Below, one piece after another: positions 16,087-46,856 of a stretch of 64,000 nt of DNA. Source of the DNA: Oceanospirillum multiglobuliferum (GTDB lineage: Bacteria; Pseudomonadota; Gammaproteobacteria; Pseudomonadales; Halomonadaceae); the NCBI RefSeq assembly GCF_900167095.1, contig NZ_FUXG01000008.1, forward strand, positions 85,978 to 149,977, read 5' to 3'. The translations under genes and the position numbers were made by a program. Each line of letters begins with the position of its first letter. Positions within the stretch are counted from its first letter, which is position 1. The notes below the pieces were generated by a model, which worked only from the letters and a program-made list of their open reading frames with translations, was not told where the DNA came from and ran no database searches.

Positions 16087-16120
16087 AATCATGAAGCGCT
16101 AACGAAAGCGCTTCATGATT
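16087..16120. terminator. Strong hairpin between miaE and the Nudix/ParA/CHAD operon
   Basis: A perfect 14-bp stem (AATCATGAAGCGCT / AGCGCTTCATGATT) with a 6-base loop lies between convergent genes. Its right arm overlaps the last codons of the Nudix gene. There is no long T-run on either side, so it may be a transcription terminator of the weaker type or an mRNA 3'-end stabiliser. Confidence 0.7.
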
Positions 16121-16503
16121 GCCGAGGCGATTGTTTGGTCGGCCATTACTCGATTTAACTTATTTAATTCAACCCAGCAGCGTTTGCGCTCTTTCTGCTC
16201 TGGCCAACGGCGCAGTGTTTTTGTAACTTTAATAACAAAAACCCAAACCGTACGCTTTTTATTTTTCATACCCGAGCAAGTTGAAATTTTGAACTTTGAA
16301 CTTTGACTTAACCTTCCAATCATGCCCGCTTCTTCATAAGCCTCAAGCCGTGCAACGCCTGCTTTAGAAAGCTTTTTCTCTGTTTTACCCATCGGAATCA
16401 TCCAGTGACCATGCTTTCTACTGGTTACTAAACATACCTCTGGTGCACGATTTTTCCGATGTCGAATCAGCAGAGCGGCTATACGTTCCTTGTGATCAGC
16501 CAT
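16099..16503 (-). CDS. Nudix hydrolase, DIPP-like
   Basis: A 134-residue Nudix protein starting at ATG 16503, five bases after the parA stop; a longer frame reaching into parA is less likely. The Nudix box is IPMGKTEKKLSKAGVARLEA followed by YEEAG, which matches the short-variant box of diphosphoinositol-polyphosphate phosphohydrolase-like bacterial proteins (PKGWPEKG...AREAFEEAG). The three box glutamates are present, but the usual Arg before the first of them is replaced by Leu (RLE instead of xRE). Eukaryotic members of this group cleave inositol pyrophosphates, diadenosine polyphosphates and polyphosphate. Here it is the last gene of an operon with ParA and a CHAD protein, which would suit a polyphosphate substrate; this is inference. 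Confidence 0.75.
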   Translation of the reverse strand: MADHKERIAALLIRHRKNRAPEVCLVTSRKHGHWMIPMGKTEKKLSKAGVARLEAYEEAGMIGRLSQSSKFKISTCSGMKNKKRTVWVFVIKVTKTLRRWPEQKERKRCWVELNKLNRVMADQTIASAIMKRFR

Positions 16504-16508
16504 AATAA

Positions 16509-17258
16509 TTATAAGCTCTCTAACTGCTGTTGAATTTCTTGCCATAAGTTTAGATAGGCTTCCCCACCTGCTGTTTTGGCTGCAAAACAGGCAACAGGAG
16601 TGCGATGCTCGCCCATTTTTTCAATATCACTTGAAAAGGGCACTTGGGTAATCAGCGTTCGTTTGTATCGACTCTGCATCCGCTCAATTGTCGTTTTATG
16701 TAGTTGCTTCTGCTTTTGAACCATTGAAAAGAATGGGTAAACTTGACCAACAGGAAGGTCTTTATCACGGAAAAACTCTAGCAACTGCTCATAAGTGCGC
16801 TCAGAAAGAGTGGTTGGTATTACTGGTACAACAATCATATCGGCAGCTTGAAACACCGCCTCACTGAGATAGCTTAAACTAGGTGGGCAGTCCAAGATTA
16901 TCAAGTCGTACTCTTTTTTTAGTCCTTTCAGCACTTGGCGTAAGCGGCGTTGGCGTTTGTTTATATCACTTAGAAAAACATCAAAATGTCGGAACGACTG
17001 ATGGGCAGGAATGATATCTAAACCATCAAAGTCAGAGGCTTTAATTTGCTTTAAAAGACTCTCATAGGTATCAAAAAAACGCTTTCCCCATTGCTTTTTA
17101 CCGGAGCGTACACGAAAGTAAAAAGAGGATGCGCCTTGTGAGTCTAAGTCTATTAATAGCGTGCGATAACCTGCTTGAGCTGCGTTATAAGCTAAATTCA
17201 CAGAGGTTGCGGTTTTACCAACACCGCCTTTAATACTGTAGCAAGCGAGTATCTTCAT
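16509..17258 (-). CDS. ParA/MinD-family partition ATPase
   Basis: A 249-residue Walker-type partition ATPase. The deviant Walker A motif is YSIKGGVGKTATSVNLAY with the signature lysine before GGVGKT, the A' box is LLIDLDSQG and Walker B is DLIILDCPPSL. There is no N-terminal helix-turn-helix extension, so it is the small ParA type (Soj, ParF, McdA-like). AAGGA precedes the ATG. It lies three bases after the CHAD gene and five before the Nudix gene. No ParB is adjacent; the first gene of the operon is a ribbon-helix-helix protein that may play the partner or repressor role. Orphan ParA proteins often position protein cargoes on the nucleoid; the likely cargo here is suggested by the CHAD neighbour. 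Confidence 0.92.
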   Translation of the reverse strand: MKILACYSIKGGVGKTATSVNLAYNAAQAGYRTLLIDLDSQGASSFYFRVRSGKKQWGKRFFDTYESLLKQIKASDFDGLDIIPAHQSFRHFDVFLSDINKRQRRLRQVLKGLKKEYDLIILDCPPSLSYLSEAVFQAADMIVVPVIPTTLSERTYEQLLEFFRDKDLPVGQVYPFFSMVQKQKQLHKTTIERMQSRYKRTLITQVPFSSDIEKMGEHRTPVACFAAKTAGGEAYLNLWQEIQQQLESL

Positions 17259-17261
17259 ACT

Positions 17262-18827
17262 TCAATCCTTTTGATGTGCAGGCAGGGTCGTAGTTTCAGG
17301 TTTTAAGTACAGCTGCGCTAGAGCTAGACTCATATCATTTTCAATAAAAGCCTTCAGTTGGATCTCTGCATCAAGACGTTGGTCTTGTTGTTTTACGAAC
17401 AAAACGCCAGACAAGGCATGCACTGCAGCAACAATACTGTCTGATGACTGGGCACCACTATGGTTTTCTAGCTCGCCAATGTCTGGGGAGCTGATCCAGT
17501 GCTCAAGATACTCTCGCTGTACGGCAAAATCGTTAAAATCCCCTAGGCTATCTTGTAATTTTTTCAGTGCCTTAAGTAGTGTTTTCAAGCTCTTTCTTGC
17601 CTGTTTTTCTTGAAATAGCCCAGTAAAAAACTCTAGTAGATAGCGAAGCTTTTTCGCCTCTAGACGAATATCATGGATCTCATCATCAACAGACTGCGGT
17701 GTAATAAGCTGAGCTTGAGCAACGATTTTTTCGTAACTCTTAAGCAAACGCTTGGCGGCTAGCTTTTGAACGGGCTGAAGTGCTTGTTTACTTTCTTTAA
17801 AATCAAGGCTAGCAAGTTGCTGCTCGATTTCTTCAATTTTACTTTGATAGGCAGGGCTTTTTATCCAGCGCGCAAGTGAACGATGAGCCAACTTACGCTT
17901 ATTAGCAAACTCGCTAAATAGTTCATCAAGCCCTTGATGAAACTGCTGTGGCAGCAGCTGTTTATATTCATCTTGACGCTGAAGATAAACGTCTAGGTCA
18001 CGCAGGGTATTAGTTCTACGTGCCAGATCACCTAAACTGAGTTTAAAATACTGGCTCGCTTCTATACCTACAACCTGTTTAAGCTGAGTAAACAAAGCTC
18101 GGCTACGACGTAATGCAACACGGTATTGATGCAAAAATAGCTTATCCCAGTCAGCGGCAATACCTGTTTCGTTTAACCGTACATTCTGCCAAAGCGTCGT
18201 ATGAATACTGGTTAGCGCTGTTGCGGCATTGTCATTCTCACCCATTATAAATACAGGTCTGCGGCTATAGCAGGTTGGGCAGATAGCCAACAGCTCTAAA
18301 CTGAGCTGAAATATGTGACGCTCTAGACTGTCTGGCTCAGAGGATAAAATAACACCTAGTGCTTCTCGGTATTCCTTCTCATACCCACGCAAACCACTTA
18401 ACTCCAGCATCGCGCCTAAGCCTGTTTGTGTGATATTCAAATCACACACTTTTTTCAGGTCTTCATTACGCAGTGCATATTGATAGTATTCAACCTCCAT
18501 ATCGGCCATTGGAAATAGACGACGAATATCAGTATGCGCAGAGACATAGGCTTTTAGCTGAGGATCGACGCAGTTCTCTGCATAACTAGGCACAGGTTCT
18601 GCACGATAGACATTAAGGTCAAGGTGGTTAATAAAGAAGGTTAATCCTTTATGGTTACTGGCTAATAGTCTATTTTTTTTCCAAAGACGCCATTCAAAAT
18701 CATCATAAAAGGTTAAGGTTTCTTGCTGAATCTGCATCGGCTCAAGGGTAAAGTGCGCTTGCAGTTTTTCCAGTATCTGTTCGGTTTTCTGACTATCCTG
18801 AACCAGCCACCGGGAATGCTTAATCAT
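17262..18827 (-). CDS. CYTH-like/CHAD domain protein
   Basis: A 521-residue protein with a degenerate CYTH-like N-terminal part (TFYDDFEWRLWKKNRLL near residue 43, the pattern found before CHAD domains) and a C-terminal CHAD (conserved histidine alpha-helical) domain. CHAD signatures are LFLHQYRVALRRSRALFTQL near residue 228 and EIHDIRLEAKKLRYLLEFFT near 380, with their conserved His/Arg/Lys residues that bind polyphosphate. CHAD proteins are known to coat polyphosphate granules. The N terminus lacks a clear ExExK metal motif, so it may not be an active triphosphatase. ATGA overlap with the RHH gene and a three-base gap to parA show one operon. Confidence 0.88.
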   Translation of the reverse strand: MIKHSRWLVQDSQKTEQILEKLQAHFTLEPMQIQQETLTFYDDFEWRLWKKNRLLASNHKGLTFFINHLDLNVYRAEPVPSYAENCVDPQLKAYVSAHTDIRRLFPMADMEVEYYQYALRNEDLKKVCDLNITQTGLGAMLELSGLRGYEKEYREALGVILSSEPDSLERHIFQLSLELLAICPTCYSRRPVFIMGENDNAATALTSIHTTLWQNVRLNETGIAADWDKLFLHQYRVALRRSRALFTQLKQVVGIEASQYFKLSLGDLARRTNTLRDLDVYLQRQDEYKQLLPQQFHQGLDELFSEFANKRKLAHRSLARWIKSPAYQSKIEEIEQQLASLDFKESKQALQPVQKLAAKRLLKSYEKIVAQAQLITPQSVDDEIHDIRLEAKKLRYLLEFFTGLFQEKQARKSLKTLLKALKKLQDSLGDFNDFAVQREYLEHWISSPDIGELENHSGAQSSDSIVAAVHALSGVLFVKQQDQRLDAEIQLKAFIENDMSLALAQLYLKPETTTLPAHQKD

Positions 18828-19015
18828 TTTGACTTACTTCCATTTGTTTTCAGTTTTACCCTTCCAGCAAGATAATCTTCGACCAGTTGCTCAACAATTT
18901 TTTGAATGCTACTGTCTTGCTCTATCGCTTTGATCTTTAAGGCTTTAAGGGTCTCATTTTTGAGCCTGAGCGATGTGTTTTTTTTGGTTTTTTCGCCAGA
19001 TTCATCTTTATCCAT
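18824..19015 (-). CDS. Small ribbon-helix-helix DNA-binding protein
   Basis: A 63-residue, highly charged protein. Residues 15-50 fit a ribbon-helix-helix (MetJ/Arc) pattern: KNTSLRLKNETLKALKIKAIEQDSSIQKIVEQLVEDYL, with a beta strand of alternating residues followed by two helices. N- and C-terminal tails are basic and flexible (ending KTNGSKSK), like ParG or the ParB-type partners of small ParA ATPases. It is the first gene of the operon and overlaps the CHAD gene by ATGA. Just upstream are repeated ATGAC motifs that could be its binding sites. It may repress the operon and act as the ParA partner; both are inferred. Confidence 0.75.
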   Translation of the reverse strand: MDKDESGEKTKKNTSLRLKNETLKALKIKAIEQDSSIQKIVEQLVEDYLAGRVKLKTNGSKSK

Positions 19016-19035
19016 CAGGCGTTACTCATTCCAAT

Positions 19036-19101
19036 CATGACATAATGACGTCATTTATTGTGCAAAAATTGGCATGCATAATCAAATGACAAAATAATGA
19101 C
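19036..19101. promoter_or_regulatory. Clustered ATGAC repeats upstream of RHH-parA operon
   Basis: Five copies of the pentamer ATGAC (or its complement GTCAT) occur within 66 bases: ATGAC at about 19036, the palindrome AATGACGTCATT at 19044-19055, and AATGAC at 19085 and 19096. RHH proteins bind such short repeats cooperatively, so this is a candidate operator and possibly a centromere-like site. AT-rich sequence between them probably contains the promoter. Confidence 0.55.
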
Positions 19102-45392: not shown

Positions 45393-46856
45393 TTAGCTGC
45401 CGCGTTTTTCCAAACGCAGTAAAAACTCTTGCATGATGATGGTGTAAAGCTCTTCTTTTAGCCAAAGATCTTCTACTTCGTAGTCGATACTTGGGTTGTC
45501 ATTCACTTCAATTACATAAGCTTTGTCGCCAGCTTGCTTCAAGTCGATACCATAGAGGCCATCACCAATTAGGCGACTGGCTTTAACTGCTGCATCAATA
45601 ATGGCGCGAGGTACTTCAAAGGTGGGCAGGGTTTCAAAACCGCCTGATTCTGCACCAGTGTCACCATGCTGATAAATTTGCCAGTGATCTTTCACCATAA
45701 AGTAACGGCAGGCAAAAATTGGCTTGTTATTCAGTATGCCGATACGCCAATCAAAGTCGGTATACATAAACTCTTGCGCCAGTAGCAGTGCTGATTTTTG
45801 GCTCAGCTCTTTTACTTTCAGCGCCAACTCTTCACGATTGCTGACTTTTACTACGCCCTTTGAAAACGCCCCATCAGGGATTTTCAGTACAATTGGATAG
45901 CCCAAGTCCTTTTCCAACTCATCCAATGCCGCTTTTGTATGTTGGCTGATGATGCGGGTTTTAGGCGCAGGCACCTTATTCACCGCCAGCAAGTCTGCCA
46001 AATACACTTTATTGGTGCAGCGTAGAATAGAGGTCGGATCATCCATCACCACCAAACCTTCAGCCTGTGCTTTTTTGGCAAATTTGTAGGTGTGATGGTC
46101 AATATTGGTGGTTTCGCGGATAAAGAGCGCATCGTATTCCGCTAAACGCATATAATCTTTTTTGGTGATCAGCTCTGCGTCAATGCCCAGTTTCTCAGCC
46201 GCCTTAATAAAAAACTTCAGCGCGTCCATATCGCTAGGTGGCATCGCTTCATCTGGGTTATACAGAATCGCCATGTCATATTTAGCGCCTTTTTTCGGCT
46301 TGGTTTTACGCCAAATTTTACGGCTGAAATGATCAAAACTGCTCGCAAAACGCTGCTGATCATCATCTGTTTTCAGGTCTTTTAAGGATAAGAAGCGCAA
46401 CTTATCCAACTGCCACACTTTACGTTTGGATAAGGTGAGTTCTAGCACTGGGCTGGCAAAACGCTCAAACAGCACTTTACCTAGTGCTTTCAGTTCAGGA
46501 ACTGAGGTATCACCAAAAAAGATACGTACCACTTGCTGATCGCTATCTGAATCTACGAAGGCTTTGTTAGCCAACTCACTTAGATTTTCAACCTGCATTA
46601 GGTAGAGCGACTTTTTGCCTAAATCATTAATAGATTGCACAGCAGGCAGCACGTTATGACCACGCGCCTCAGCCAGCAACGAACAATAATAACCACGACT
46701 TAAATACTTATAATTTCGACACAAATTGATCACACGCACGCGCTCGCGCTTACGCACAGGCAGCGCCATATATTGATCAAAGGTTATGACGTCACTACTT
46801 GGATAATAGGGCTTCCAATCATCTAACTCATCCACGACGACATAAAGCGTTGACAT
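45393..46856 (-). CDS. RimK-like ATP-grasp ligase with RLAN N-terminal domain
   Basis: A 487-residue ATP-grasp enzyme. ATG at 46856 follows AAGGAG; a 12-residue extension is less likely. Residues 1-200 are the RimK-like ligase N-terminal (RLAN) domain: YVVVDELDDWKPYYPSSDVITFDQYM and INLCRNYKYLSRGYYCSLLAEARGH. The C-terminal ATP-grasp half has FIRETTNIDHHTYKFAKKAQAEGL, LGYPIVLKIPDGAFSKGVVKV and DLKQAGDKAYVIEVNDNPSIDYEVED with magnesium-binding residues. Such proteins form amide bonds to amino acids. It is divergent from a GNAT/C39 fusion gene, a pairing seen elsewhere and probably functional. Confidence 0.88.
   Translation of the reverse strand: MSTLYVVVDELDDWKPYYPSSDVITFDQYMALPVRKRERVRVINLCRNYKYLSRGYYCSLLAEARGHNVLPAVQSINDLGKKSLYLMQVENLSELANKAFVDSDSDQQVVRIFFGDTSVPELKALGKVLFERFASPVLELTLSKRKVWQLDKLRFLSLKDLKTDDDQQRFASSFDHFSRKIWRKTKPKKGAKYDMAILYNPDEAMPPSDMDALKFFIKAAEKLGIDAELITKKDYMRLAEYDALFIRETTNIDHHTYKFAKKAQAEGLVVMDDPTSILRCTNKVYLADLLAVNKVPAPKTRIISQHTKAALDELEKDLGYPIVLKIPDGAFSKGVVKVSNREELALKVKELSQKSALLLAQEFMYTDFDWRIGILNNKPIFACRYFMVKDHWQIYQHGDTGAESGGFETLPTFEVPRAIIDAAVKASRLIGDGLYGIDLKQAGDKAYVIEVNDNPSIDYEVEDLWLKEELYTIIMQEFLLRLEKRGS

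Follow-up and report, generated by a model that had tools for sequence, protein, structure and literature searches.

The 64,000-nucleotide stretch of Oceanospirillum multiglobuliferum DNA analysed here (contig NZ_FUXG01000008.1, positions 85,978 to 149,977; hereafter the window) carries a compact operon of four genes, which encode a ribbon-helix-helix (RHH) protein, a CHAD protein, a ParA-type ATPase, and a Nudix-type hydrolase. Gene coordinates and junctions were re-read from the window, and the order RHH-CHAD-ParA-Nudix given in an initial annotation of the sequence was confirmed; all four genes are on the minus strand. The RHH and CHAD genes overlap in the sequence ATGA, the CHAD and ParA genes are separated by 3 bases, and the ParA and Nudix genes by 5 bases if the Nudix start is the ATG at 16503. 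The features of the operon are as follows.

19038..19053, minus strand: putative RHH operator, tandem 8-bp boxes TGACGTCA and TTATGTCA, starting 38 bp upstream of the RHH start
18824..19015, minus strand: RHH protein of 63 amino acids, likely autorepressor (below-cut-off Pfam matches, AlphaFold2 model, fold searches)
17262..18827, minus strand: CHAD protein of 521 amino acids, predicted phosin-type adaptor of polyphosphate (polyP) granules (Pfam, alignment, AlphaFold model)
18270..18827, minus strand: N-terminal TTM/CYTH-like domain of the CHAD protein, residues 1-186 approximately, ExExK absent
17295..18239, minus strand: CHAD domain, residues 197-511 approximately (residues matched to CtCHAD)
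16509..17258, minus strand: ParA-type ATPase of 249 amino acids, KGGVGKT Walker A motif with signature lysine (Pfam, conserved residues, Soj match)
16099..16503, minus strand: Nudix-type hydrolase of 134 amino acids with a degenerate Nudix box (Pfam, alignment)

The ATPase matches Pfam AAA_31 with 126.4 bits (cut-off 27). Its residues K10, K15, D39, and D123 are invariant in all 35 ParA relatives that were collected by scanning genome contigs with the window ParA protein (the first set), and K10 and K15 preserve the deviant Walker A motif KGGxGKT with the signature lysine of the ParA type. A ParA profile searched against solved structures gave full-length matches (profile positions 2-242 of 246) to chromosome ParA/Soj entries, 8ray (4.9e-34) and Soj (6iub, 4e-26), which makes ParA and Soj the closest solved relatives, with FleN and BcsQ well behind. 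The window protein shows 82% identity to its nearest relative, from Oceanospirillum.

A CHAD gene lies upstream of ParA in 30 of the 35 first-set loci, with a gap of 175 bases in L031; the loci without it are L011, L016, L033, L034, and the distant Bacillus L036. A second set was drawn from 369 Gammaproteobacteria, 56 of which matched the ParA profile at E values up to 1e-50, and 56 non-window matches were analysed with their flanks. A purpose-built CHAD profile found a CHAD neighbour in 38 of these 56 loci, and the Pfam CHAD model placed a same-strand CHAD gene directly upstream in 42 of the 57 ParA matches of this one class, window included; the counts vary by method, the Pfam model also picking up short CHAD proteins. 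Because 42 of the 57 matches share this orientation and position, the CHAD-ParA arrangement is far beyond chance. The pair ranges over Gamma-, Alpha-, and Zetaproteobacteria, Thermodesulfobacteriota, and one contig of a Planctomycetota metagenome-assembled genome. The initial annotation had named beforehand a neighbourhood confined to this genome as grounds for refuting its proposal; the CHAD-ParA pair, at 30/35 and 42/57, clearly reaches beyond it. In the ParA tree, CHAD-linked rows cluster, with 10 label changes compared to a shuffled mean of 22.4; only this clustering was used, and the rooting and outgroup placement were set aside because three outgroup rows (own_L042, own_L043, and L036) are truncated. 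At E values up to 1e-50, ParA occurs in only 19 of 58 genomes of the genus, family, and order, and its distribution is therefore patchy even near home.

The CHAD protein is recognised by Pfam PF05235 with 166.8 bits (cut-off 25.6), and its AlphaFold model has a predicted local distance difference test (pLDDT) score of 91.8. The CtCHAD residues H253, R256, R260, R296, R418, and Y419, which were mutated as polyP-binding residues of the central pore (PMC6537752), correspond in an alignment mapped by eye to H233, R236, R240, R276, R395, and Y396 of the window protein. Among 29 aligned CHAD proteins, H233 is nearly invariant and the other five are invariant, and by this alignment the window protein retains the polyP-binding residues of the solved homologue. 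The N-terminal half shows the TTM tunnel fold. None of 29 CHAD proteins has, within its first 60 residues, the ExExK motif expected of CYTH/TTM triphosphatases; the CYTH row of L021 was left out of this comparison. The combination of TTM-like and CHAD domains is also found in E. coli YgiF (5a60). YgiF is described as an active short-chain polyphosphatase (PMC6537752), whereas the window protein is devoid of ExExK, and the CHAD half of the latter is much closer to CtCHAD than to YgiF. CHAD frames of at least 490 amino acids, the size of a TTM-like plus CHAD protein, make up 35 of 42 ParA-adjacent frames but 28 of 94 others in the gammaproteobacterial class set, contig-edge fragments included. 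Homologues of the CHAD protein number 1611, and the best 120 of them show no ParA Pfam domain and thus no CHAD-ParA fusion.

Genes for polyP metabolism surround the pair in part of the loci. Neighbour profiles were built from the first set and Pfam-checked on examples (PPK1, PPK2, Ppx/GppA, His_Phos_1, CYTH, and HHH_5). PPK1, PPK2, or PPX lies within ~6 kb in 13 of 35 first-set loci and 10 of 56 second-set loci, compared to none of 20 control stretches. The controls share contigs, chosen for length, with 20 case loci, and PPK/PPX is found at 5 of these 20 paired loci, so that the contrast is weaker here than in the full sets. In two Desulfuromusa loci (L008 and L009), PPK1 (cut at the edge), PPX, SixA-like, CHAD, ParA, CYTH, RHH-like, and a helix-hairpin-helix (HhH)/Lys-rich protein stand together, and in L013 the neighbourhood includes PPK2 (3e-108). 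At the level of whole genomes, PPK1 is present in 51 of 56 genomes carrying the ParA subfamily and in 167 of the remaining 313 Gammaproteobacteria, and CHAD in 50 of 56 and 76 of 313, respectively, the genomes being non-independent; the five ParA-subfamily genomes without PPK1 all have PPK2. The window genome contains one CHAD gene, one PPK1, and PPK2. A second PPK2 copy in it (G000:C26:22740-23418) is apparently split over two frames with a stop, and an intact-looking PPK2 lies nearby (C26:32097-32768).

Some ParA relatives adjoin PPK1 (L119:4238-7256) or, convergently, PPX (L033:6001-8335), with no adjoining CHAD detected; in L119, PPK1 is directly upstream of ParA. These two loci raise the possibility that the connection to polyP predates the one to CHAD.

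It is fairly probable, in our estimate, that the CHAD-ParA pair positions polyP granules in the manner of other ParA-type systems. The granules are the likely cargo because the conserved pair accompanies genes of polyP synthesis and breakdown. To this extent the granule-positioning proposal of the initial annotation is supported by the pair and its surroundings; the spacing of granules by ParA is what we infer from them. In the proposed mechanism, the CHAD protein is predicted to coat polyP granules, and ParA-ATP dimers would attach to the nucleoid. From its place on the granule, the CHAD protein would serve as the cargo adaptor, in the role of McdB or ParB, and would stimulate the ParA ATPase, and the granules would follow the resulting ParA gradient, remain separate, and pass to both daughter cells. 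The Nudix enzyme, or elsewhere a CYTH or SixA-like protein, might act at the granule to trim polyP or phosphorylated nucleotides, and the RHH protein, as the upstream box suggests, would be a repressor of the operon that acts by binding to the tandem TGACGTCA boxes. The fuller claim, of a dedicated ATP-driven partition machine for polyP granules across distant bacteria, built from a ParA subfamily and a CHAD phosin adaptor and placed under RHH control through tandem TGACGTCA boxes in a marine subset, is narrowly the likelier case.

The RHH protein scores 16.4 bits for Pfam RHH_1, below the cut-off of 20.5, and CopG_antitoxin is likewise below its cut-off. Its AlphaFold model (pLDDT 79.5) has the RHH fold, and mostly RHH folds lead the Foldseek and VIA lists, with weak scores and no Foldseek E value below 0.001; a profile sequence search of the PDB gave no match. 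The initial annotation had considered RHH proteins as partners of small ParA proteins, but the counts do not support the RHH protein as a general partner: it is present in 15 of 35 first-set loci (phmmer), none of the 56 second-set loci, and 2 of 398 proteobacterial genomes, that of the window included. Autoregulation fits it better because it is rare across the loci and is accompanied by a conserved upstream box.

This box, TGACGTCA, occurs 23-75 bp upstream of the RHH start in 14 of the 15 RHH loci, with no other copy in their 180,549 bp; the locus without it, L022, has the weakest RHH match. The 76 other loci contain 8 sites in 941,106 bp, and among 15 loci without a detected RHH gene the box is near CHAD in two (L017 and L035). 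The motif is a post-hoc one, picked by eye across the upstream regions and then counted, and a 6-mer test on single upstream regions was not significant (P 0.08 to 1.0). The 15 loci are also related, including five from Oceanospirillum, two from Colwellia, and two from Paracoccus; a further RHH locus, L156 (G492), shares 2071 bases with L007 at 100% identity and was not taken as a separate case. A second 8-bp unit often precedes or follows the box, the window arrangement being TGACGTCA TTATGTCA, and such tandem 8-bp boxes are reminiscent of the operators of MetJ-type RHH proteins. Outside the discovery set, a 368-kb plasmid of Paracoccus marcusii (L153), whose genus was already represented in that set, carries RHH, CHAD, ParA, CYTH, and Nudix genes together with TGACGTCA 27 bp upstream; the RHH-bearing version could have spread by way of such a plasmid. 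A lone TGACGTCA at position 46787 of the window is about the number expected in 64 kb. The 16-bp tandem pattern has a single perfect match in the window genome, and its two matches with two mismatches compare with six in a reversed-pattern control, by which a genome-wide RHH regulon or centromere was rejected. Judged from its sequence context, the simplest reading of the RHH protein is autorepression of an operon version that is patchy and largely marine in its distribution.

The Nudix-type hydrolase (Pfam NUDIX, 26 bits; cut-off 21.1) has its longest open reading frame starting at 16545, which overlaps ParA, and the ATG at 16503 fits close relatives. A complete Nudix box has the pattern Gx5Ex7REUxEExGU. 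In the window protein the Arg had been reported missing, and the position is indeed occupied by Leu; the first Glu of the box is replaced as well, so that the complete box of DIPP-type hydrolases is not present, and the EExG core is invariant in 10 aligned Nudix proteins. With 9 of 35 first-set and 3 of 56 second-set loci, the gene is an accessory rather than a general component.

Several observations weigh against a granule-positioning role. PPK/PPX is not within reach in 22 of 35 and 46 of 56 loci, although contig ends shorten 8 of the 35 and 22 of the 56. CHAD-positive genomes without this ParA carry PPK1 in 66 of 76 cases, and the association of ParA with PPK1 may therefore ride on CHAD. 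An adjoining CHAD gene is missing from 15 of the 57 ParA matches; these are mostly the lowest-scoring ones, which may represent another branch, yet G025, G079, and G272 are better matches. A Thiodictyon plasmid carries a CHAD gene with no ParA beside it, the loci are phylogenetically non-independent, and no data were found on where these CHAD and ParA proteins localise, what they bind, or how ParA hydrolyses ATP. The ParA-like ATPase could also act as a switch instead of a positioner. In that case the pair would be a regulatory switch that responds to polyP: ParA would sense ATP and, via CHAD, tune PPK/PPX activity or granule assembly while leaving the granules unmoved. Enzyme control of this kind fits the PPK1, PPK2, PPX, CYTH, and SixA-like genes that adjoin the pair in part of the loci, and the ParA/MinD relatives BcsQ and FleN, which are regulatory or assembly factors, appear among the structure matches. 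However, ParA and Soj are well ahead of both as solved relatives, and ParA-type positioners can also be encoded with the genes of their cargo; we regard such a switch as unlikely, though it deserves attention.

Two further explanations turn on the RHH protein. A DNA partition cassette resembling ParF/ParG, formed by RHH, ParA, and the TGACGTCA boxes with CHAD and Nudix as passengers, is highly improbable. In type Ib plasmid partition the RHH centromere-binding partner is obligate, whereas here it is often absent by the counts given above, the 56 second-set loci lacking RHH throughout while 38 keep CHAD. The gene order RHH-CHAD-ParA, the single perfect tandem box in the window genome, and the contig of the window copy, which carries miaE and apparent znu and his genes (the latter identified by eye), also argue against it. 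Alternatively, positioning could be real and the RHH protein, where present, a second ParA regulator or a granule-nucleoid tether in addition to an autorepressor. A Lys-containing N-terminal tail before the RHH core in 16 aligned proteins and the occurrence of a second RHH-like family, RHH2, in 7 of 35 loci are in line with this idea; the tail can be as short as ~5 residues (L019), however, and the position of the conserved box is the one expected of a repressor operator, which renders the additional role rather doubtful. RHH2 proteins are short and basic and lie near ParA (L009:7303-7482, L014:6717-6920), and the two members scanned gave no Pfam match.

Among the closest known systems is McdAB, in which a ParA-type ATPase and a cargo-associated adaptor space carboxysomes evenly on the nucleoid (PMC6328274, PMC13052382). 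The positioning machine proposed here differs in its proposed cargo, polyP, and in its proposed adaptor, a large TTM-like plus CHAD protein instead of McdB; the window ParA also keeps the signature lysine, which S. elongatus McdA is described as lacking, and is nearer by sequence to Soj than to the solved McdA. AlgP, PhaF, PhaM, and PhaH likewise space polyP or polyhydroxybutyrate (PHB) granules on the nucleoid, but in the passages cited they are granule proteins that bind DNA and bring no ATPase with them (PMC9239181, PMC13052382). The initial annotation knew of no described system with this gene combination; a folD-ppk-parA-CHAD cluster is, however, on record for Acidithiobacillus (PMC10892726; figure legend of PMC6416229). 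There, parA beside CHAD and ppk is given as gene context in studies of copper resistance and second messengers, whose relevant passages assign it no positioning role. A Streptomyces operon, ppk-pptA(CHAD)-Nudix, similarly unites a CHAD phosin and a Nudix hydrolase with PPK, but as described it has three genes, without ParA or RHH, and PptA is a CHAD protein of 388 amino acids (PMC8003754). As far as the accessible passages extend, no ParA-based positioning system for polyP was found in the open-licence PMC literature, preprints excluded. According to a 2025 review, whether cells expend energy on where PHB and polyP granules lie "remains to be seen", and the Caulobacter proteins responsible for polyP granule positioning have not been identified (PMC13052382). 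Overproduction of McdA in Synechococcus resulted in unusually many granules, for which the authors suggested polyP (PMC6328274), a possible lead to cross-talk.

The CHAD-ParA pair is a concrete, deletable candidate for granule positioning in Oceanospirillum linum, Paracoccus species, and Desulfuromusa kysingii, and offers a reason for parA standing beside ppk and CHAD in Acidithiobacillus. If the proposal is true, the polyP granule, a store important in surviving starvation and in the removal of phosphorus, would be a storage body actively spaced and inherited through a ParA ATPase. ParA-type transport, which is known for signalling clusters, would then extend from DNA, carboxysomes, and such clusters to an inorganic polymer store. 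The best-supported hypothesis at present is that the system adds polyP granules to the cargoes of ParA-type positioning, if in vivo tests hold.

An HhH protein with a Lys-rich tail is encoded downstream of ParA in 7 of 35 first-set and 3 of 56 second-set loci (L009:7519-7908, L008:7371-7796, L014:6944-7423; also L013, L018, and L021), that of L009 matching Pfam HHH_5 at 5e-9. It recalls the nucleoid-binding granule proteins AlgP and PhaH (PMC13052382), and by this analogy a second positioning component is possible.

Around the operon, the same-strand gene upstream encodes a NudC-type NAD diphosphatase. A role in a defence system was rejected, PADLOC giving one weak ParA P-loop match, and no Rfam match to a structured RNA was obtained in the operon. 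The 3 promoter-like sites of the region are no more than chance predicts (5.4 in shuffles). At 16087-16120, where the convergent miaE and Nudix genes meet, an inverted repeat of 13 bp, AATCATGAAGCGC, perfect and with an 8-base loop, was seen by eye to overlap the Nudix stop; it is without a T-run and was not called as a terminator. Terminator-like sites exceed the chance level, with 7 compared to 2.9 in shuffles (standard deviation 1.6); all lie within the coding stretch, and six of the seven are on the opposite strand.

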